Shown in pieces: positions 5,055-61,200 of a stretch of DNA of 63,242 nt; the stretch's first letter is position 1, and every line of letters begins with the position of its first letter. The stretch comes from Gammaproteobacteria bacterium (GTDB lineage: Bacteria > Pseudomonadota > Gammaproteobacteria > JACCYU01). The notes below the pieces were generated by a model, which saw only the letters and a list, made by a program, of their open reading frames with translations, was not told where the DNA came from and did no database searches. The stretch lies in contig JACCZW010000053.1 in assembly GCA_013695765.1 (NCBI GenBank), positions 1 to 63,242 on the forward strand, in the 5' to 3' direction. A program made the position numbers and the translations under genes.

Positions 5055-8000
5055 ATGTCATTTACCGACATCTTCATCCGCAGACCCGTGCTCGCGATGG
5101 TGCTGAGCCTGTTCATCTTTCTGCTGGGCCTGCGTTCCGCGCAGGAACTCAACGTCCGTCAATACCCCGAACTGCAGAACGCGGTGATCACCGTCAATAC
5201 CACTTACGTTGGCGCGGACGCCGATCTGGTGCAGGGCTTCATCACGACGCCCATGGAGCGTGAAGTCGCGTCGGCCGACGGCATCGATTACATCGTATCC
5301 ACCAGCCTGCCCAGCGTCAGTTCCATTCAGGCTTATGTACGCCTGGGCGCCGATCCCAACGAGGTGCTGACGCAGATCGTCGCCAAGGTGCAGGTCGTGC
5401 GCCGCGATCTGCCGGAAGAATCCGAAGACCCGGTGGTCGATCTGGCCGTCGGTGATACCACCGCGGCCATGTACCTGTCCTTTTTCAGTGAGGTGCTGGA
5501 CAACAACCAGATCACGGATTATCTGGTGCGGGTGGTCGAGCCGAAGCTGGCGACCATACCCGGCGTGCAGCGCGCTCGAATCTTAGGCGATCGCACGTTC
5601 GCCATGCGCATCTGGCTCAAGCCCGACCGCATGACCGCGATGAACATCACGGCCAGCGACGTGTACGCCGCGCTGCGCGCCAACAACGTGCTGTCGGCGG
5701 TGGGCTCCACCAAAGGCTCGATGGTGGTGGTTGACCTGACCGCGCGCACAGATCTGCGCACGCCCGAAGAGTTCCGCAAGCTGGCGGTGCGCACCGAGGA
5801 CGGCGCCATCGTGCGTCTCTCGGATGTCGCCAAAGTCGACTTAGGCTCGGAAACCTATCAGACCAGCGTCAGCTTCAATGGCGAATCGGCCACCTTCATG
5901 GGTATCGAGGTGGCGCCCGACGCGAATTCGCTGGATGTGATTCAGGCCGTGCGCAAGATATGGGACAGCGAAATCGTGCCGCAACTGCCGCAGGGGCTGC
6001 GGGCATCGATTCCGTATGACAGCACGGAATATATTCAGGACGCCATCGACGAGGTTACCAAGACGCTGGCGGAGGCAGTATTGATCGTGGTGGTGGTTAT
6101 TTTTCTGTTTCTGGGGTCGCTGCGCAGTGTGATCATCCCGGCCGTGACCGTGCCGCTGTCCATGGTCGGCGCGCTGTTCCTGATGCTACTGATGGGTTTC
6201 ACCATCAATCTGCTGACCCTGCTGGCGATGGTGCTGGCAATCGGCATCGTGGTGGACGACGCGATCATAGTGCTGGAGAATATCCACCGGCATATCGAAG
6301 AGGGCATGAGCGCGACCGATGCCGCGCTGACAGGCGCACGCGAACTGGCCTGGCCGGTGGTGGCGATGACCACCACCCTGATCGCGGTGTATCTGCCGAT
6401 CGGATTTATCGGCGGCTTGACCGGCACCCTCTTCGTAGAATTCGCGTTTACTCTGGCCGGCGCTGTGCTGCTCTCCGGTGTGATCGCACTGACTTTGTCG
6501 CCGATGATGTGCGCCAGACTCCTTAAACCGCACGCCCGGGATCAGGCGGCGACGGGGAGCGACAAACTGGCAGGATGGCTGGACCGTCAATTCGAAAAAC
6601 TGCGCCTGGCGTACCAGCGCAGCCTGCACCGCTCGATGGGCGATCGCTGGGGCATCCTCGTGTTCGGCGCGATCGTGTTCGTGTCGTGCTACTTCCTGTT
6701 CGTGTCTACGCAAACGGAACTGGCACCTGAGGAAGATCAAGGCTTTATACTCACTTTCTCGGAGAGCGATCCGTATTCGACAATCGAATATCTGGAAAGC
6801 TATACGCGCGAACTGGACACCATCGCCGAAGATCTGCCAGAAATGGAAAACCTTTTTCTGCTCAACGGGGTGGGCGGCGGCGGCTCTGCGGTATCGTCCA
6901 ACACTGCGATTGCCGGCTTCGTGCTCAAGCCCTGGACCGAGCGAAAACGGACCAGCCAGGAAGTGCTTAACGAAGTGATCAATCCGCGCATCGGCAAGAT
7001 CGCCGGCCTTCAGGTTGCCGCGTTCATTCCCCCCGCGCTACCTACGGGTGGCGGCGGTGGTTTTCCGGTGGAGTTCGTCATCGGTGGCACCGCGCCGGTG
7101 GAGAGCCTGAACGAGGTTGCCGGTGCGGTTATGGGTGCCGCGCAGAACAGCAAGAAATTTATCTTTCTCAACAGCGATCTCAAGATCAACAAGCCGCGCA
7201 CCGAAGTCTTGATCGACCGTGACAAGGCGGCGCTGCTCGGCATCGACATGCAAGACTTAAGCGCCGACATGGCCGCCATGCTTTCCGGTGGATTCGCCAA
7301 CCGTTTCTCGCTGGAAAACCGCTCGTACGAGGTCATCCCTCAGGTGCAACGCGTGGATCGCCTCAATGCGGGGCAGCTCGAACAATATTACACACGCACC
7401 GGCAGCGGCGAGCTGGTGCCGTTATCGACGCTGGTATCGCTCAAGGATTCGGTGGAACCGCAGCAGCTCAAGCGTTTTCAGCAGTTGAACAGCGTGACGC
7501 TCTCGGGAATTCCGCGGCCAGGTGTGTCGCTGGGCGAGGCCTTGGGCGTGCTGGAACAGGCGGCTGCGGATAACCTGCCGCCCGGTTTCTCGGTGGATTA
7601 TGCGGGTCAGTCGCGACAGTTCAAGACCGAGGGCGCGGCGCTGATGCTGACGTTTTTCTTCGCGCTGATCGTGATCTACCTGGTGCTGGCGGCGCAGTTT
7701 GAGTCGTTCCGCGATCCGCTCATCATGCTGGTCACGGTACCCATGTCCATCAGCGGCGCGCTGCTGGCGCTGAACGTAGTCGGTATTCTGAATGGCATGC
7801 AGATCACCAGCTTTCCCGGCGTGAGCCTGAACATTTACACGCAGGTGGGCCTGGTCACCCTGATCGGCGTGATCTCCAAACACGGGATACTGATCGTCGA
7901 ATTCGCCAATCGATTGCAGCGCGAGGGTCGGTCTAAACAGGCGGCGATCGAAGAGGCGTCATCCATACGTCTGCGGCCGGTATTGATGACCACCGCGGCT

Positions 8001-46164: not shown

Positions 46165-47957
46165 TAACCCGGCGACGAGTTTGCGCTGGTCGGCGTCTGT
46201 ATCTTTCGAAACTGCGATCGGTGCAATCCGGTATAGATGCCGCCCTGCGCCAGCAACTGCGCATGCGTACCAGTTTCCGCGATGCGCCCCTCCTGCATCA
46301 CCACAATGCGATCGGCGTTCTCTACGGTGGACAGACGGTGCGCAATCACCAGGGTGGTACGGTTCTTCACCAGCGCCTCCAGCGCGGCCTGGATGTGCTG
46401 CTCCGCCTCGCTGTCCAGCGACGAGGTCGCCTCGTCCAGAATCAATACCGGCGCGTCTTTCAGCAGCGCGCGGGCGATCGCCAGCCGCTGCCGCTGCCCA
46501 CCCGACAGGAGGATGCCGTTCTCGCCGACCATGGTGTCCAAACCTTGCGGCAGACGGGTGATGAACTCCGTCGCGTGCGCGGCGATCGCCGCCTTTTCGA
46601 TCTGTACGCGGCTGGCGCCGCCCTGACGACCGTACGCGATGTTGGCCGCGATGGTGTCGTTGAACAACACCACTTCCTGGCTCACATAGGTAATCCGTTC
46701 CCGCAAATCGGCTAGCGCGTAGTCACGAATGCTTACCTCATCGAGCAACACCTGCCCGGCCTGCGGCTCGTAGAAGCGTGGCAACAGATTCACCAAGGTG
46801 GATTTGCCGCTGCCGGAACGCCCCACCAGAGCGACGGTTTCGCCGGGGTTGATTGTCAGCGAAATGTCCTTAAGCACCTGGCCCTTGGCCTGCTCGTAAC
46901 TGAAGATCACGTTGCGGTATTCGACCAGGCCACGGCGACTGGTCGGCGCTTGGGTCGGCCGGTCGTATTCTCGCTCGCTGTCGATCAGCTCGAAAATGCT
47001 TTCACCGGCGGCGATGCCCTGCTGCACGCGGGCGTTGATATTGGTGAGATTGCGCGCCGGCGTCAGCAGCAGGGTAACGGAGATAATGAACGAAACGAAA
47101 GTCCCGACCGTGATCTGCTCCAGCACCGGCGGCAACGTGGCGAGAAACACGATGGCCGTCAGCGCCAGCCCTACGACCAGTTGAATGAACGGCGTGCTGG
47201 CGGCCTCGGTGCGGGCCATCTTCATGTGCATTCTGCGGTTGTGCTCGTTCACGGCCTCGAAATGCTGCGTTTCGTAGGCATGTCCGCCAAAAATCTTGAC
47301 CACGCGATGGCCTTCGATCATCTCCTGCGCGACATGCGTCACGTCGCCCATGGAGCGTTGAATGTTGCCGCTGATCTTGCGGAACCGCTTGCTGGCGTAG
47401 ATGACCATCGCGGTGACAATCGGCGCGGCGATAAGAAAGCACAAAGTCAGCTCCACGCTCAAATAAAACATCCACAACACCAGGCCGATGATGGTCAGGG
47501 TGTCGCGTATCAGAATGGTCATACTGCGGCTTGCGGCGTCGGCCACCTGTTCGACGTTGTAAGTCAGCTTGGAGATGAGCTGGCCGGTCGAACTCGCATC
47601 GAAATACGTGACCGGCATATGCAGCAGTTGATGAAACATCTGCCCGCGCAGCACCTTGACGACGCAGCGCCCAACGTAGGACACGTAGTAGCTCGACAGA
47701 TACCCGCCGACCCCGCGCACCAGCAGGATGCCCGCCATCAGCGGCGGCAACCAGCGGATCATGTCGTGATCGCGGTCCACGAAGCTGCCATCCAGCAACG
47801 GTTTCATCAGCGCCGCGAAACCCGTGTCGGTGGCCGCGTACAAGACCATGCCCAGCACCGCGAACGCCATGCTGCGCCAGTAGGCCAGCGCATATCCCAG
47901 CAGCCGCCGGTATATGCCCACGCCGCCGCGGCCTGGTGTGACAGCGCTATCGTTCAT
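46164..47957 (-). CDS. msbA: Lipid A export ABC transporter MsbA
   Basis: Homodimeric flippase moving lipid A-core across the inner membrane. 597 residues: six-helix transmembrane domain (residues ~20-320; e.g. VELTLCFLIAAPIVTAMVIY), then the nucleotide-binding domain with Walker [21 protein letters not shown], signature ILLSGGQRQRLAIARALLKD and Walker B VLILDEATSSLDSEAEQH. Assignment as MsbA rather than another type-1 exporter rests on lpxK and kdsB next door. Overlaps exbD by 11 bases. Confidence 0.94.
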   Translation of the reverse strand: MNDSAVTPGRGGVGIYRRLLGYALAYWRSMAFAVLGMVLYAATDTGFAALMKPLLDGSFVDRDHDMIRWLPPLMAGILLVRGVGGYLSSYYVSYVGRCVVKVLRGQMFHQLLHMPVTYFDASSTGQLISKLTYNVEQVADAASRSMTILIRDTLTIIGLVLWMFYLSVELTLCFLIAAPIVTAMVIYASKRFRKISGNIQRSMGDVTHVAQEMIEGHRVVKIFGGHAYETQHFEAVNEHNRRMHMKMARTEAASTPFIQLVVGLALTAIVFLATLPPVLEQITVGTFVSFIISVTLLLTPARNLTNINARVQQGIAAGESIFELIDSEREYDRPTQAPTSRRGLVEYRNVIFSYEQAKGQVLKDISLTINPGETVALVGRSGSGKSTLVNLLPRFYEPQAGQVLLDEVSIRDYALADLRERITYVSQEVVLFNDTIAANIAYGRQGGASRVQIEKAAIAAHATEFITRLPQGLDTMVGENGILLSGGQRQRLAIARALLKDAPVLILDEATSSLDSEAEQHIQAALEALVKNRTTLVIAHRLSTVENADRIVVMQEGRIAETGTHAQLLAQGGIYTGLHRSQFRKIQTPTSANSSPG

Positions 47958-48363
47958 CGTGCGTGGTGGCGATCGACAGATGCGTCAAACCCAGTCTGGC
48001 GGCTACGTCCATGGCCGTGACGACGGCCTGATGGGGAGTGCGCCCATCGGCGTTCAAAATGATCGGGGTATCCGCACGCCCCTTCGATACGTCGTCAAGT
48101 GCCGTGCTCAGCGTTGCGGAGCGGTTATTGACGAGCGCCCGGCCATTGATGTAATAGCGCCCGGCGGAGTCGATGGCGAGTTCCAGCGGTTGCTGGCGCC
48201 GCGTCAAAGGCTCGGCGGTGGCGTTTGGCAACTCGATCTGCAATTCGGCGTGGCGTTCGAACGTCGTGGTCAGCACGAAAAAAATCAACAGCACGAATAC
48301 AACGTCGATCAGCGACGTCAGATTGAGCTCCAGCCGGTCGCCCCTACGGGCCTTGAACCTCAT
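47947..48363 (-). CDS. exbD: ExbD/TolR family biopolymer transport protein
   Basis: 138 residues: a short cytoplasmic N-terminus, one transmembrane helix carrying the conserved Asp (LNLTSLIDVVFVLLIFFVLT), then a periplasmic domain. It partners the ExbB-type protein encoded just upstream (4-base overlap) to convert the proton gradient into work at the outer membrane. A TonB gene is not in the window. The same exbB-exbD pair precedes msbA in other gammaproteobacteria. Confidence 0.93.
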   Translation of the reverse strand: MRFKARRGDRLELNLTSLIDVVFVLLIFFVLTTTFERHAELQIELPNATAEPLTRRQQPLELAIDSAGRYYINGRALVNNRSATLSTALDDVSKGRADTPIILNADGRTPHQAVVTAMDVAARLGLTHLSIATTHDER

Positions 48364-49007
48364 GCGGCGTCTCCCTGCAGGTGTGCCGGACGCGCGTTCT
48401 GCCGACGTTCGCCGCGCATGATTTCCATCAATTTAATCGTCTCGGCTTCCATGTTTATCACGAGATCATCGACCCGGCCGCGAAAATAGCGGTAAAAAAA
48501 CAAGGTGGGTATGGCAACCACGAGCCCGGCGACGGTAGTGATCAACGCCACCGAGATACCGCCCGCCATCTGCTGCGGATCGCCGATCCCCGCATCCGTG
48601 ATGGTGCCGAAGATCTGCATCATGCCGATCACGGTACCGAGCAGCCCGAGCAGCGGCGAGATCGTCGCGATCGTGCCTAACGTATTCAGGAAACGTTCCA
48701 GTTCGTGCGCCACGTGACGCCCGGTCTCCTCGACCGACTCCTTCATGATCTGCCGGTCTTCATTCGCGCTGCTCAGACCGGCCGCAAGAATACGACCCAG
48801 AGGCGAACTGTCGCGCAGTGCGGTGACGTGATTTTGAGTCAATTTACCTTGCTGGCGCAGCCGCCAGACTTGTTTGACCAGATCTTTAGGCATCACCCGC
48901 TGGCGTTGCAGACTCCAAAAACGCTCGCCAATGATCGCGAGCGCCAGGATCGAACACGCGATGCTGGGCACCATCACCCAGCCGCCGGCCTTGATGATCT
49001 CAAACAC
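48360..49007 (-). CDS. exbB: MotA/TolQ/ExbB proton channel family protein
   Basis: 215 residues with three transmembrane helices: an N-terminal helix (GGWVMVPSIACSILALAIIG), then two in the C-terminal half (TIATISPLLGLLGTVIGMMQ and GGISVALITTVAGLVVAIPT). The Pro/Gly-rich pattern of helices 2 and 3 is the ExbB/TolQ signature. Forms the stator channel with the adjacent ExbD. First of the msbA-lpxK operon genes; comEC ends 96 bases upstream. Confidence 0.93.
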   Translation of the reverse strand: MFEIIKAGGWVMVPSIACSILALAIIGERFWSLQRQRVMPKDLVKQVWRLRQQGKLTQNHVTALRDSSPLGRILAAGLSSANEDRQIMKESVEETGRHVAHELERFLNTLGTIATISPLLGLLGTVIGMMQIFGTITDAGIGDPQQMAGGISVALITTVAGLVVAIPTLFFYRYFRGRVDDLVINMEAETIKLMEIMRGERRQNARPAHLQGDAA

Positions 49008-54733: not shown

Positions 54734-55574
54734 CTACGGGCAAAACCTCAACGCCACTATAAGCGGCATCGAGCAGGCGGCGCGCGAGGGCGCGCAATTA
54801 GTGCTGTTGCAGGAACTTCATACTAGCCTTTACTTCTGCAACACCGAAGACTCGGCGAAATTCGAACTGGCCGAACCCGTCCCCGGCCCCACCACCGAAA
54901 AACTGTCCACCACGGCCCGCGCGCTGGGCGTAATAATCGTAGGCTCGGTGTTCGAGCGGCGCGCCGCCGGCATTTATCACAACACGGCGGTCGTAATCGA
55001 GTCCGATGGCCACATCGCCGGCATCTACCGCAAGATGCACATCCCGGACGATCCCGGCTATTACGAGAAATACTATTTCACGCCGGGCGATCTGGGCTTC
55101 ACCCCGATCGACACCTCGCTAGCCCGCCTGGGCGTGCTGGTGTGCTGGGATCAATGGTTCCCGGAAGCGGCGCGCCTGATGGCGCTGGCCGGTGCGGAAT
55201 TGCTGCTCTACCCCAGTGCGATCGGCTGGGATTTCAACGACACCGAAGACGAGCGCGCGCGCCAGTTCGATGCCTGGCGCACCATCCAGCGCGCGCACGC
55301 GATCGCGAACGGCCTGCCGTTGTTGTGCTGCAACCGAGTCGGGCTGGAACGCGACCCGTCCGGCGCCGGTCTCGACAGCGGGTTCTGGGGCGGCAGCTTT
55401 GCCTGCGGGCCGCAGGGCGAACTGCTGGCGCAGGCGCCGCACGATGTGGAATCGGTGCTGGTGGTCGACATCGACCTGACGCGCACCACCACGGTTCGGC
55501 ACGCATGGCCTTATTTGCGGGATCGTCGCATTGATGCGTACGAGGACATTACCCGCCGTTATAGAGATCCTTGA
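54696..55574 (+). CDS. aguB: N-carbamoylputrescine amidase
   Basis: Nitrilase-superfamily enzyme releasing putrescine, CO2 and ammonia from N-carbamoylputrescine. 292 residues with the Glu-Lys-Cys triad: E40 in LVLLQELHTSLYFC, K113 in IYRKMHIPDDPGYYEKYYFT, C150 in VLVCWDQWFPEAARLMAL. The YYEKYYFTPGDLGF stretch is characteristic of this amidase rather than of other nitrilases. Translationally coupled to aguA. No arginine decarboxylase is nearby. Confidence 0.95.
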   Translation: MRAGLVQHANAHDYGQNLNATISGIEQAAREGAQLVLLQELHTSLYFCNTEDSAKFELAEPVPGPTTEKLSTTARALGVIIVGSVFERRAAGIYHNTAVVIESDGHIAGIYRKMHIPDDPGYYEKYYFTPGDLGFTPIDTSLARLGVLVCWDQWFPEAARLMALAGAELLLYPSAIGWDFNDTEDERARQFDAWRTIQRAHAIANGLPLLCCNRVGLERDPSGAGLDSGFWGGSFACGPQGELLAQAPHDVESVLVVDIDLTRTTTVRHAWPYLRDRRIDAYEDITRRYRDP

Positions 55575-55885
55575 TTCCCTGCATATCCGACTCACTGGAG
55601 GTTTATAGAGTCAAAACATCCGCGCAACAATCGGCGGATCGCGATCAGGAATCAACAGAGAAAAGCGTTAGCCAGCGGATAGCACTTCCCTCTCGCGACC
55701 TAAAAGGCCGCTACATCCAGAAGCACCAACGTCGCTTAAACCCCGACGGCTGGTCGCATCTTTAAGAAACTCCTCGCTTACACTGCGCCGCTCGACAAGA
55801 ACGCCGAACGCAAGCCGCAAAGCGGCAATCAGGCGGCAGCTCAAAAGCAATAACGCTTTTCCGATCCATTACGGGGTATACGCAC
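55575..55885. other. 311-bp gap after aguB
   Basis: Contains no recognisable gene. A GGAGG at about 55597 is not followed by a usable start codon. A 64-codon frame (55571-55765) overlapping the aguB stop ends in a basic stretch (DLKGRYIQKHQRRLNPDGWS) but matches nothing I know. The last ~100 bases should hold the promoter of the secreted-protein gene at 55886; no clear boxes seen. Confidence 0.3.
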
Positions 55886-56746
55886 ATGAAACTCGATCAC
55901 CGCTTCCGGGCGACGGTTTGTGCGCTCGCCTGCGCCAAGCTGCTCGCGTTGTGCCTTTATTCTTCGGTTGCTTCGGCGGCACCCTCGATCACTTGGCGAC
56001 CGGAGGCGATTAACCATGAAATTCCCGCGGGCGCCACTGTTACGTTGCGTACTTCGTTCGTCGCGTCCGAAGAGATCCAAGACGCTACACTGAGAGTCGT
56101 GCCTTCCCTGGCGCGCTATGTTCAGGCCGTTCAGGTTTACCCTGCGGCGGGTGCCACCATTCGGCCCTATGATCCCGCGCAGGTCATGCTGAACGTCTCC
56201 GTGCCGCAGGCCCTAGGGCCCGTCACCTTGAATGGCGTCGTCCAGCTAAAGAGCGCCGGCCAAACAAACAAGACCTACGCAAAGCCCCTTCCGGTGACTT
56301 TAGCCGTGGTGGCGCCGGTCGGAGGACTGCCGCCCGATCCGGGTGAGGCAGGCAAGGCGACGCTGCTTGGTATCGACGTCAATGAGAACGGCATCCGAGA
56401 TGATGTGGAGCGGTACATCGTGCTCGAGAATCGCGATAAGCCCAAGCTCATTCCGCCACTACTCCACTTTGCTTGGTTGACCCAGGAAGGACTTCGTCAG
56501 CACAAAGAAGGCGCGGCTTTCCCGCCAGACTATCTTGGCCAGCTCGTGAGGAATCAGCGCTGTCTATGGTACCTGGACTCAGAAGGCGGCGATCGTCTTC
56601 TTGAGATGCTCGATATCGTAAGCAACACGCCCGAGCGATGGATTACAAACCTTGAACTGGATAAGGAAGTCGCGGGAGGCAAGATGATCAAGTATCAGGA
56701 AAGCTCTGAGAAGGATTGCGAAGGCCTCCGAACTCCGCCTGGTTGA
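55886..56746 (+). CDS. Secreted protein of unknown function with an EF-hand-like DxNxNG motif
   Basis: 286 residues. A signal peptide is clear (basic start MKLDHRFRATV, hydrophobic core CALACAKLLALCLYSS, probable cleavage after VASA). Residues ~40-150 look like a beta-sandwich (alternating hydrophobic strands, VTLRTSF ... VTLNGVVQLKSAG). A Pro/Gly linker leads to LLGIDVNENGIRDDVERYIV, a calcium-loop-like DxNxNGxxDDxE motif, and a helical C-terminus with two Cys (CLWYL, DCEGL) that could pair. I recognise no named family. It lies 84 bases before the interrupted hydrolase gene on the same strand; both products are exported, so they may act together. Confidence 0.7.
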   Translation: MKLDHRFRATVCALACAKLLALCLYSSVASAAPSITWRPEAINHEIPAGATVTLRTSFVASEEIQDATLRVVPSLARYVQAVQVYPAAGATIRPYDPAQVMLNVSVPQALGPVTLNGVVQLKSAGQTNKTYAKPLPVTLAVVAPVGGLPPDPGEAGKATLLGIDVNENGIRDDVERYIVLENRDKPKLIPPLLHFAWLTQEGLRQHKEGAAFPPDYLGQLVRNQRCLWYLDSEGGDRLLEMLDIVSNTPERWITNLELDKEVAGGKMIKYQESSEKDCEGLRTPPG

Positions 56747-56830
56747 GCATGCCTCGTAGCTGTGCGGTCCCCCAGCTTGGAGAAGTGCGCTGACTTCGGC
56801 GCAACAACTTAGAACAGAAGGATTTCCCCC

Positions 56831-57982
56831 GTGCGAATATTGAAACGAACGATTGCTGCTATTGCCCTTCTAGTTTCGCTTTCCGGCGCCGCTTTAGCAG
56901 CGTGTCCGAATACAGGCTCCAATTTACACGCCGGATATATCAACGGAATGCTAACAAGCTGGACGAGCGCGAACGAGAATCTTAGCGGCGTTAGGGCCGC
57001 GCTTGATCCGGTCATGTCCGGCCAGGGGCACAATGTGGAATGGGCGCTGCACTACAACCAAGATGAGGCTAATCGTGAGGAGGTCAAAGAGATCCTATAC
57101 CAAAAGCTGGAGGACGAGGGCTTCTTCAAAGCGATGAAGATCTTCATCACACTGATCAACAGCAAAGTGGACTCCATCTCGCTTGAGAATCTTCCCTTTT
57201 TCGGCGTTGATACCAAGGCGCAGCTCGAAGCCGCGATCAAGGATTGGGTGAAGCGCCAGTATGCGGAGCTCGAGCGCTTGATCCTGGCAGCGGCCGGTAC
57301 CCCTTATGCGGGCGATGCGGATGTCGGTAGCGCGGTAGCCGCAATTCATGCGGAGATTGTGAATGACTGCCGCAAGGTTCTCTTGCTTGCGCATTCATAA
57401 GGGAACTTCTACGCCAATGCCGTCTGGGACGACCTCTATGCAAAGCTGGTCGATAAATATAGGATGGATCAGTTCAGAATCCTTGGGATCGTCGGCCTGG
57501 GTTCGCCGGCCGGTCGGGTGGGAAATGATCTGGCCTCCGGGCTCGACAGCTCGAATCTCCGCGTCCATGTCAATCACGAGCGCGATATTGTCAAGGTGAT
57601 CCTCGATCCACTCGGGCTGGGCACCTTACCGGCGACGACCAATGCCGACACATCGGATCCTATAGCCCATGCGCTGTTGGATACGTACCTCGGGGTCCCG
57701 GAGGTGCATGCGCAGGTCATGCAGAAGGTCGCGCAGGTGGCGGAAAATCTTGAACCGTGGGCGCTTGCACGGCAAGGTGTGAATTCATCCGCCATTGCCT
57801 CCGCGGGCTACAATGACTTCAACGAGCTGCTTGATATCGCGTTTACAGGCAGCGGTTCCGAGTACCGCTATGAGCACGTGCCGGTATCGGTTTACCAGTC
57901 CATGCTCTCGGCCTCTTCAGTCGGGACATACTTCAATGCGAACGTTCGCAATAATTACTCCACTCGCAAGGTCTATCCCTAG
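56831..57982 (+). pseudogene. Secreted alpha/beta-hydrolase-like gene interrupted by one in-frame TAA
   Basis: One reading frame runs from GTG 56831 (ribosome site AAGGA at 56818-56822) to the TAG at 57980-57982, 383 codons, broken only by TAA at 57398-57400. The N-terminus is a signal peptide; LAAC at residues 22-25 could be a lipobox. The break falls in VLLLAHS-stop-GNFYANAVWD: the nucleophile elbow of a lipase/esterase, where HSQG is expected, so a single C-to-T change (CAA to TAA) explains it. Downstream, HERDIVKVI and AHALLDTYLG could supply Asp and His. As it stands the first part makes a 189-residue product without the core; the second part has a possible ATG at 57464. Loss of function, suppression or base-calling error cannot be told apart here. 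Confidence 0.7.
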
Positions 57983-58221
57983 TCCGAAGGTCCATTGAAG
58001 CCGCGCCCGACGCCTGCCGGGTGCGGCTGCTGGGAGTGCTCATGTCCCGCCACCAGCGCACCGATGGCCCGATCCGTAACGGCGATAGCGTAACCTATCT
58101 TTCGCACGTTTGAGGAGGCAGTGGCCTCGATCTGGTTCATTGAGTAACGCCAATCAACTCCCTTGATCTGCTGAGGGCGGCGCCTTCCTGCGCCTCGGCC
58201 GTGTTGTCCTGAAGGTGGAAT

Positions 58222-61200
58222 ATGGGACAATGCTTCGCGAACCAACCTGCCCTTGGTGATTACTTGCAACAGAACCCCCCGGCTTCCTCAAGTCCTTTAC
58301 GCCCGCTGCTGGCAACAGCTGACCTACCGCGGGTAACCTGGGGGCGACTCTACGGCAGCAGCCGCGGGCTTGTCATCGCACAAGCGCAGGCTAAGCATCG
58401 TGGCTTGACGGTAGTGTTGGCGCCCGATGCGCATACGGCGGAGGTGCTGGAACAGGAACTGCGGTTTTTCTGCGATCACGCCGAGATTCTGCTGTTTCCC
58501 GACTGGGAAACCTTGCCCTACGACGTGTTCTCGCCGTTCGAGGACATCATCTCTCAGCGGCTGGAAACGCTTTATCGCCTGCCCTCATTTTCTGGGGGCG
58601 TGCTTATCGTGCCAGTGGCCACTTTGATGCAGCGGCTCGCGCCGCGCTCTTATCTGCAAGGGCACAGCCTGATGATGACGCGCGGCGAGCGTCTGGATCG
58701 CGAGCAGTTGCGCGCGCGCCTGCAGGCAGTAGGTTATAACTATGTCTCGCAGGTGATGACGCACGGGGAGTATACCGTGCGCGGCTCGATCATCGATCTG
58801 TATCCGATGGGCAGCCGCGTGCCTTATCGCATCGATCTGTTCGATGACGAGATCGAAACTATCCGCAGCTTCGATCCCGAGCAGCAGACATCAAAGGCCG
58901 AGGTCAATGAAATACGCCTGTTGCCGGCGCGGGAATTTCCCACGGATGAAGCCGGCATCAAGCAGTTCCGCCAGAACTTTCGCGTAGCCTTCGAGGGTGA
59001 TCCGACCGCGAGCCTGATCTACCGAGAAGTAAGTCAGGGCGCGATGCCCGCGGGCATCGAATATTATCTGCCGCTCTTTTTCGAGCATACCGAAACCCTG
59101 TTCGACTACCTGCCGGGCAATACGCTGTTCATCCAGGTCGATGATCTGCTGGCGGCGGCGCAGAGGTTCGAAGACGAAATCCATGCGCGGTACGAGCAGC
59201 GCCGTCACGACCGCGAGCGCCCGTTGCTACCGCCCGCCGAACTGTTTATTTCGCCGGCCGAAATCGAGACAAGCATCCAGGCCGGGCGCGCGGTGGTGGC
59301 GCATCGTTACGAACTCGATGCGCCGGACAACGCCGCGTCGATCAACTACCGCACGCGCTCATTACCCGATCTGAACGTACGCGCCCGCAGTGCGGAACCG
59401 GCCGGATCGTTGCACAAATTTCTAGATGAACTGACTGGCCGCACGCTGTTCGTGGCGGAATCGGCGGGCCGTCGCGAGCACCTGCTGGAGGTGTTGCACG
59501 GTTTCGAGCTGCGCCCTGCGCAGGTCGATGGCTGGCGGGCGTTTCTCGACTGCGACGCAAAGCTCGCCATAACGACGGCGCCACTTGAACAAAGTCTGCA
59601 CATTGAAGGCGCGGATTCGCAAACCCTTGTCGTCATCTCCGAGCACGAGCTGTTCGGCGAACACGTACAGCAGCGTCGACGGCGGCGCCCCGCAAGCCGC
59701 AACGCCGACGCCATAATCCGCAATCTCACCGATCTGGTGGAGGGTGCGCCGGTCGTGCACGAGGAGCACGGCGTCGGACGTTATCTTGGCCTGCAACGCC
59801 TGAACGCTGGCGGCGTGGAAGCCGAATATCTCATGCTGGCATACGCCGGCGGCGACAAGCTTTATGTGCCTGTCGCCTCACTGCATCTGGTGAGCCGCTA
59901 CGCCGGCACCAGCCCGGAGAATGCACCGCTGCATCGTCTGGGCGGCGATCAATGGCAGCGCATCAAGCGCCGCGCGGCCGACAAGGTGCGCGACGTGGCG
60001 GCCGAACTGCTCGAGATTTACGCGCGGCGCGCGGCGCGGCAAGGCCACAGCTTTATGGTGGAGGGCGACGACTACGCAGCGTTTGCAGACGCCTTCCCAT
60101 TCGAGGAAACGCCGGATCAATTGCGCGCCATCGAGGACGTACTCAAGGATATGGCGGCGACGCAACCGATGGACCGGCTGGTGTGCGGCGATGTCGGTTT
60201 CGGCAAGACCGAGGTCGCCATGCGCGCCGCGTTCGTCGCCGCGCAGAACGGCCGGCAGGTCGCCGTGCTGGTGCCGACCACCTTACTGGCGCAGCAGCAT
60301 TACCAGACGTTCACCGACCGGTTCGCGGACTGGCCGATGCGCATCGAGTCGTTATCGCGCTTTCAGGCGGGCAAGCAGGTGCAGATGATTACGGCCGGGC
60401 TGGAAAGCGGCAACGTCGATATCGTCATCGGTACACACAAGCTGCTGCAACGGGGCATCAAGTTCAAAAACTTGGGTCTGGTGGTAATCGACGAGGAACA
60501 CCGATTCGGGGTTCGCCACAAGGAACGGCTGAAGGCGCTGCGCGCGGAGGTGGATACCCTGGCGCTCACCGCCACGCCCATTCCGCGCACCTTGAATATG
60601 TCGCTGGCCAGCTTGCGCGAGCTGTCGATCATTGCCACGCCGCCCCTGCACCGGCACGCGATCAAGACCTTTGTCACGCAGTGGAGCGACGCTTTGATTC
60701 AGGAAGCCTGCCGTCGTGAACTCAAGCGCGGCGGCCAGGTGTACCTGCTGCACAACGAGGTCGAGACCATCGAGAAAGTCGCCGCCCAGGCGCGCGTGCT
60801 GCTGCCGGATGCGTCGATCAAGTTCGCGCACGGCCAGATGCGCGAGCGCGAGTTGGAGCAGGTGATGCTGGATTTTTATCACCAGCGTTTTAATGTGCTG
60901 GTGTGCACCACCATCATCGAGAGCGGCATCGACGTGCCCAGCGCCAACACGATCATCATCAATCGCGCCGACAAGCTGGGGCTCGCGCAGTTGCATCAAT
61001 TACGAGGTCGCGTGGGCCGCTCGCATCATCGTGCGTATGCGTATCTGATCGCGCCGCCCCGAACCGCCATGACGCCGGACGCGGTCAAGCGCCTGGAAGC
61101 GATCGAGTCGCTGGAAGACTTAGGTATAGGGTTCAGCCTGGCCTCGCACGATCTGGAGATTCGCGGCGCCGGCGAATTGCTGGGCGAGGATCAGAGCGGG

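Follow-up and report, generated by a model that had tools for sequence, protein, structure and literature searches.

In the 63,242-nt stretch of gammaproteobacterial DNA analysed here (the window), which is the complete contig C53 of a 3.13 Mb draft genome (164 contigs, 99.3% complete), we found a gene for a putative exported serine hydrolase whose reading frame is interrupted by a single TAA in the codon following the nucleophile serine. We consider it probable that this is a recently disabled copy of the enzyme, produced by a real nonsense mutation in an accessory gene. The frame (56831–57982, forward strand, 383 codons) runs from a GTG at 56831 through 189 codons to the TAA at 57398–57400, and then through 193 codons to the terminal TAG at 57980–57982; no second stop and no frameshift were seen in it. 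A probable ribosome-binding site, AAGGA, lies 8 nt 5′ of the GTG (56818–56822, forward strand), and the N-terminus of the product reads as a plausible signal peptide (about residues 1–24, MRILKRTIAAIALLVSLSGAALA-AC). According to the sequence and the alignments, the 5′ part of the gene (56831–57400) encodes the signal peptide and the N-terminal half of an alpha/beta hydrolase up to Ser189, while the alignments and a structure model of an orthologue place the remaining hydrolase in the 3′ part (57401–57982). The first-pass annotation of this DNA had described a secreted hydrolase gene in the same frame on both sides of one TAA, and this account stands; what it overlooked were an upstream partner gene, a KTSC domain and the accessory status of the locus.

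A scan of GTDB genomes yielded one full-length relative, in Catenovulum agarivorans DS-2, where an intact single protein of 381 aa covers both parts of the window gene (tblastn, 3e-81). It is 38% identical to the conceptual product with nearly the whole length aligned, and in the mature part the identity is 36% before the stop and 42% after it. At the stop itself, Catenovulum has PHSQGNFYAN and the window AHS-stop-GNFYAN. Because one intact orthologue aligns along almost the entire length, the two halves belong to one gene, as had been proposed, and as in a pseudogene the in-frame stop shortens a protein that is intact in relatives. More distant hydrolase members, from the class and the phylum, were gathered by profile searches. 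Pfam returned only KTSC (PF13619; 57782–57958, forward strand; E 3.3e-18, 65.6 bits, gathering cut-off 25) for the part after the stop and nothing significant for the part before it; the Catenovulum orthologue also carries the KTSC domain (E 3.6e-17). A match of the halves to different families would speak against a single gene; one Catenovulum protein spans both, and KTSC was the only family that Pfam named. A lone stop can hide a gene of this kind from automatic annotation, its halves giving no family or only KTSC. An origin of the full gene in phages, plasmids or viruses was dropped, as the search of such collections gave no full-length match.

These data also bear on the idea that the stop now divides the gene into two working units, one giving an exported fragment of 189 aa and the other a C-terminal KTSC protein with its own start. 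Although stand-alone KTSC proteins exist, we regard this as highly improbable: shortly after the stop we saw no start codon preceded at the proper distance by a ribosome-binding site, the cut separates the serine from the remaining hydrolase fold, and both parts keep hydrolase-like conservation.

Next, we studied the conservation of the catalytic residues in an alignment of 21 sequences. The alignment reads the TAA of the window as Gln, and for this reason the window is not counted as evidence at position 190. No variation occurs at His188, Ser189, Gly191, Asn192 or Asp252, and conservation reaches 90% or more at Asn38, Gly39, Gln91, Gln190, Pro226 and His280. All 22 relatives inspected for the motif show HS[QE]GN, 20 with Gln and 2 with Glu behind the serine, and none has a stop at this position. 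The initial reading of an HS-Q-G nucleophile elbow followed by Asp and His candidates is therefore well founded. Ser189, Asp252 (codon at 57584–57586) and His280 (57668–57670) are the natural candidates for the catalytic triad, and all three codons are preserved in the window. The oxyanion hole of cutinases is formed in part by the Gln that follows the nucleophile (PMC8577158); taken together with the alignment, this indicates that the stop stands in place of an expected active-site residue and cuts off the rest of the protein. The location of the stop in the nucleophile elbow is striking, but it is a post hoc observation in a gene that offers 119 other single-base routes to a stop.

A first structure model built from 6 sequences was poor (pLDDT 53) and was superseded by a 21-sequence model of the Catenovulum orthologue (pLDDT 69, pTM 0.63), in which the hydrolase strands and helices mostly score 82–98 and the nucleophile elbow consists of a strand (182–188) followed by a helix (191–206). 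When this model was compared with the PDB by Foldseek, cutinases and lipases, among them Bacillus lipase A, were matched at probabilities of up to 1.00, with E-values of only about 2e-3 and a TM-score to the query of only about 0.34; an alpha/beta-hydrolase match had been anticipated by the first-pass annotation. Sequence profiles found no convincing relative in the PDB. Elbow, Asp/His triad and overall fold of the alpha/beta hydrolase superfamily are thus all present, the elbow of the window gene being cut by the stop, and we infer that the product would be an exported serine hydrolase of the lipase/cutinase type, with a predicted enzyme activity. Cutinases (CE5; Fusarium solani cutinase, PDB 1cus) provide the best structural matches of the orthologue model and share the Ser-Asp-His order of the triad and the Gln right after the serine. 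They differ from the window-type hydrolases in sequence (about 12% identity; no match to the cutinase family PF01083 in any of the 21 members at E 0.01), as the low TM-score also conveys, and the latter have a large helical stretch before the elbow, are extended at the C-terminus and almost always come with the gene partner. The C-terminal domain itself varies by group, with KTSC in the window and Catenovulum and other long extensions elsewhere.

The partner gene lies upstream of the hydrolase (55886–56746, forward strand) and encodes an intact, exported protein of 286 aa with a thrombospondin-3-like motif, GIDVNENGIRDDVERYI. It is homologous to the gene that immediately precedes the hydrolase in Catenovulum (33% across 173 aa), and its signature is GxDxNxxGxRDDxE with Cys and NTxxR downstream. 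A partner with this motif is located upstream of the hydrolase, often abutting or overlapping it, or is fused to it, in 21 of 22 testable loci, window included; the exception is genome G030, and the copy at C25 of genome G369 sits at a contig edge. In genome G034 (L138:3840–6221) a natural fusion joins partner and hydrolase in one 793-aa protein. The near-fixed gene order and this fusion lead to the testable prediction that both proteins work together. In intact relatives the pair would be co-expressed and exported, and the partner may assist the enzyme's folding, keep hold of it or restrain it; the fusion agrees best with a function as chaperone or cofactor, and a role as inhibitor is possible. 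The pair spans class and phylum, yet it is unnamed by the Pfam and NCBIfam models used: neither the partner nor the hydrolase core gave a significant match in Pfam, NCBIfam or PADLOC, and our literature searches returned nothing on such a gene pair. Assignment to a defence system was dropped given the PADLOC result.

Two known arrangements resemble this one. Lipase-foldase pairs of the LipA/Lif type consist of an exported alpha/beta hydrolase encoded beside an exported partner, as in the window. Unlike the foldase, however, the window partner carries the thrombospondin-3-like motif and has no significant Pfam or NCBIfam match to the lipase-specific foldase (Lif); moreover, window-type partners are encoded upstream, and one relative fuses both proteins. 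Lipase effector/immunity pairs of type VI secretion systems (T6SS; PDB 9cys, which is among the weak structural matches) likewise place a lipase beside an exported protein, but the hydrolases described here have apparent Sec-type signal peptides and an upstream partner; beside the pair in the window, we saw no genes of a secretion system. In genomes G239 and G244, the hydrolase pair has small neighbours on its flanks, proteins of ~128 aa that seem to carry signal peptides and match no Pfam family (L137:4100–4489 and 7397–7780; L136:2718–3104).

Comparison with related genomes outlined a variable slot that contains the gene pair, between aguB (ending at 55574) and mfd (starting at 58222), that is, at 55575–58221. 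In G002, of the same family, the aguB and mfd matches are about 80 bp apart, whereas the congener G001 has a PLD-like gene (PF13091) after aguB instead of the pair (L134, G001:C32, reverse strand). Since a different gene fills the slot in the congener, it looks like a small insertion hotspot. The pair, absent from G001, is an accessory insertion, and loss of the enzyme would therefore be easy to tolerate.

To estimate the age of the stop, we compared the coding signal on its two sides. The codon score is 0.159 before the stop and 0.182 after it, and the GC contents of the three codon positions are 0.59/0.40/0.63 and 0.61/0.40/0.69, respectively. Since none of the 119 other stop routes has been taken, we put the neutral divergence accumulated after the stop at less than about 0.08 substitutions per site (95%), a limit that drops to about 0.02 under an indel rate one tenth of the substitution rate. 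This equal coding signal, together with the similar identity on both sides and the lack of further lesions, means that the stop, if real, is recent. The earlier proposal of a very recent decay with coding sense preserved downstream holds under the same proviso.

An otherwise perfect ORF fits equally well with an error in a live gene, and this counts against a real mutation. We therefore considered that the stop may be an artefact of base calling, of assembly or of mixed strains, with most or all cells carrying an intact gene; we judge this a less probable, though substantial, alternative. It would account for a lone lesion in a fully constrained ORF, and the draft consists of 164 contigs. As a base rate, we set 84 genes of the congener G001 against sampled portions of this assembly (about 26,000 residues). 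Three of the 84 genes showed small indel differences between the two, so errors or decay do exist in the draft at some level. In contrast, no lone in-frame stop in this assembly survived vetting in the 84 comparisons, from which an event of this kind in a gene this long would have a probability of at most about 4% (95% upper bound), and aguA, aguB, mfd and csiV in the neighbourhood are all intact. A count of broken genes made without filtering was dominated by antisense shadow frames and by normal genes lying side by side, and after filtering and inspection the other apparent lone stops proved to be shadows, indels or start-region effects. A supposed exbB/exbD frameshift in the window was likewise rejected: exbB and exbD are two normal genes here, separate and overlapping (47947–49007), and form one joined frame in the congener (L191:8076–9050), probably through an indel in the congener assembly.

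We also asked whether the TAA could be decoded. An Rfam search found 44 tRNA genes, and ARAGORN run around them gave no anticodon for TAA, TAG or TGA. Release factor RF1 is present above its curated cut-off, and TAA terminates 154 of 533 scored frames in 971 kb of this genome. Congruently with the first-pass remark that other genes here end normally in TAA, its reassignment was rejected, and genome-wide recoding is very unlikely. Low-level readthrough, leaky or programmed, through which some full-length enzyme would still be made, was another option raised at first, and it found no positive support in our data; we deem it improbable. Constraint does go on past the stop, and constrained prokaryotic genes with in-frame stops are on record; a survey proposes that such stops are often tolerated or read through (PMC7918605). 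However, the relatives carry Gln or Glu and never a stop at this position, so there is no conserved readthrough programme; no suppressor tRNA was found in a genome that has RF1; and the constraint is explained without readthrough by the recent age of the stop. Moreover, TAA is generally the least leaky of the stop codons.

Taken together, a real and recent nonsense mutation is the favoured explanation, with an error second and readthrough a distant third. Under the favoured explanation, the protein would end at residue 189, retaining the signal peptide and the serine but missing the predicted oxyanion-hole residue of the elbow, the Asp, the His and the KTSC domain, and a product without these should be inactive. 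The part after the stop would not be expected to be translated, because no ribosome-binding site stands at the proper distance from the nearest in-frame start (57464), and a fragment begun there would have no export signal. The upstream partner itself is intact. The window gene would thus resemble other nonsense-interrupted bacterial genes, or recent pseudogenes, in having a single in-frame stop in a constrained frame of an accessory gene (PMC7918605); nothing essential distinguishes it from them, except that its stop happens to fall at the active site.

While a stop of this sort is an ordinary kind of event, the uncatalogued gene pair that surrounds it is more interesting. Our boldest reading, which we offer as speculation, is an undescribed system made up of a secreted serine hydrolase, whose C-terminal domains are exchangeable, and an exported partner on which the enzyme depends, or which restrains it, and which has a calcium-binding-like motif; in this system the hydrolase would be repeatedly switched off at its active site. 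The cases of such switching off would be the nonsense codon of the window and a frameshift in genome G378, which lies in a T run just after HSQGN.

Finally, this broken hydrolase relative of G378 (L153, G378:C24) is on the reverse strand, with the frameshift at about nt 1977–2020, for which a homopolymer error, a genuine lesion and phase variation are candidate causes.
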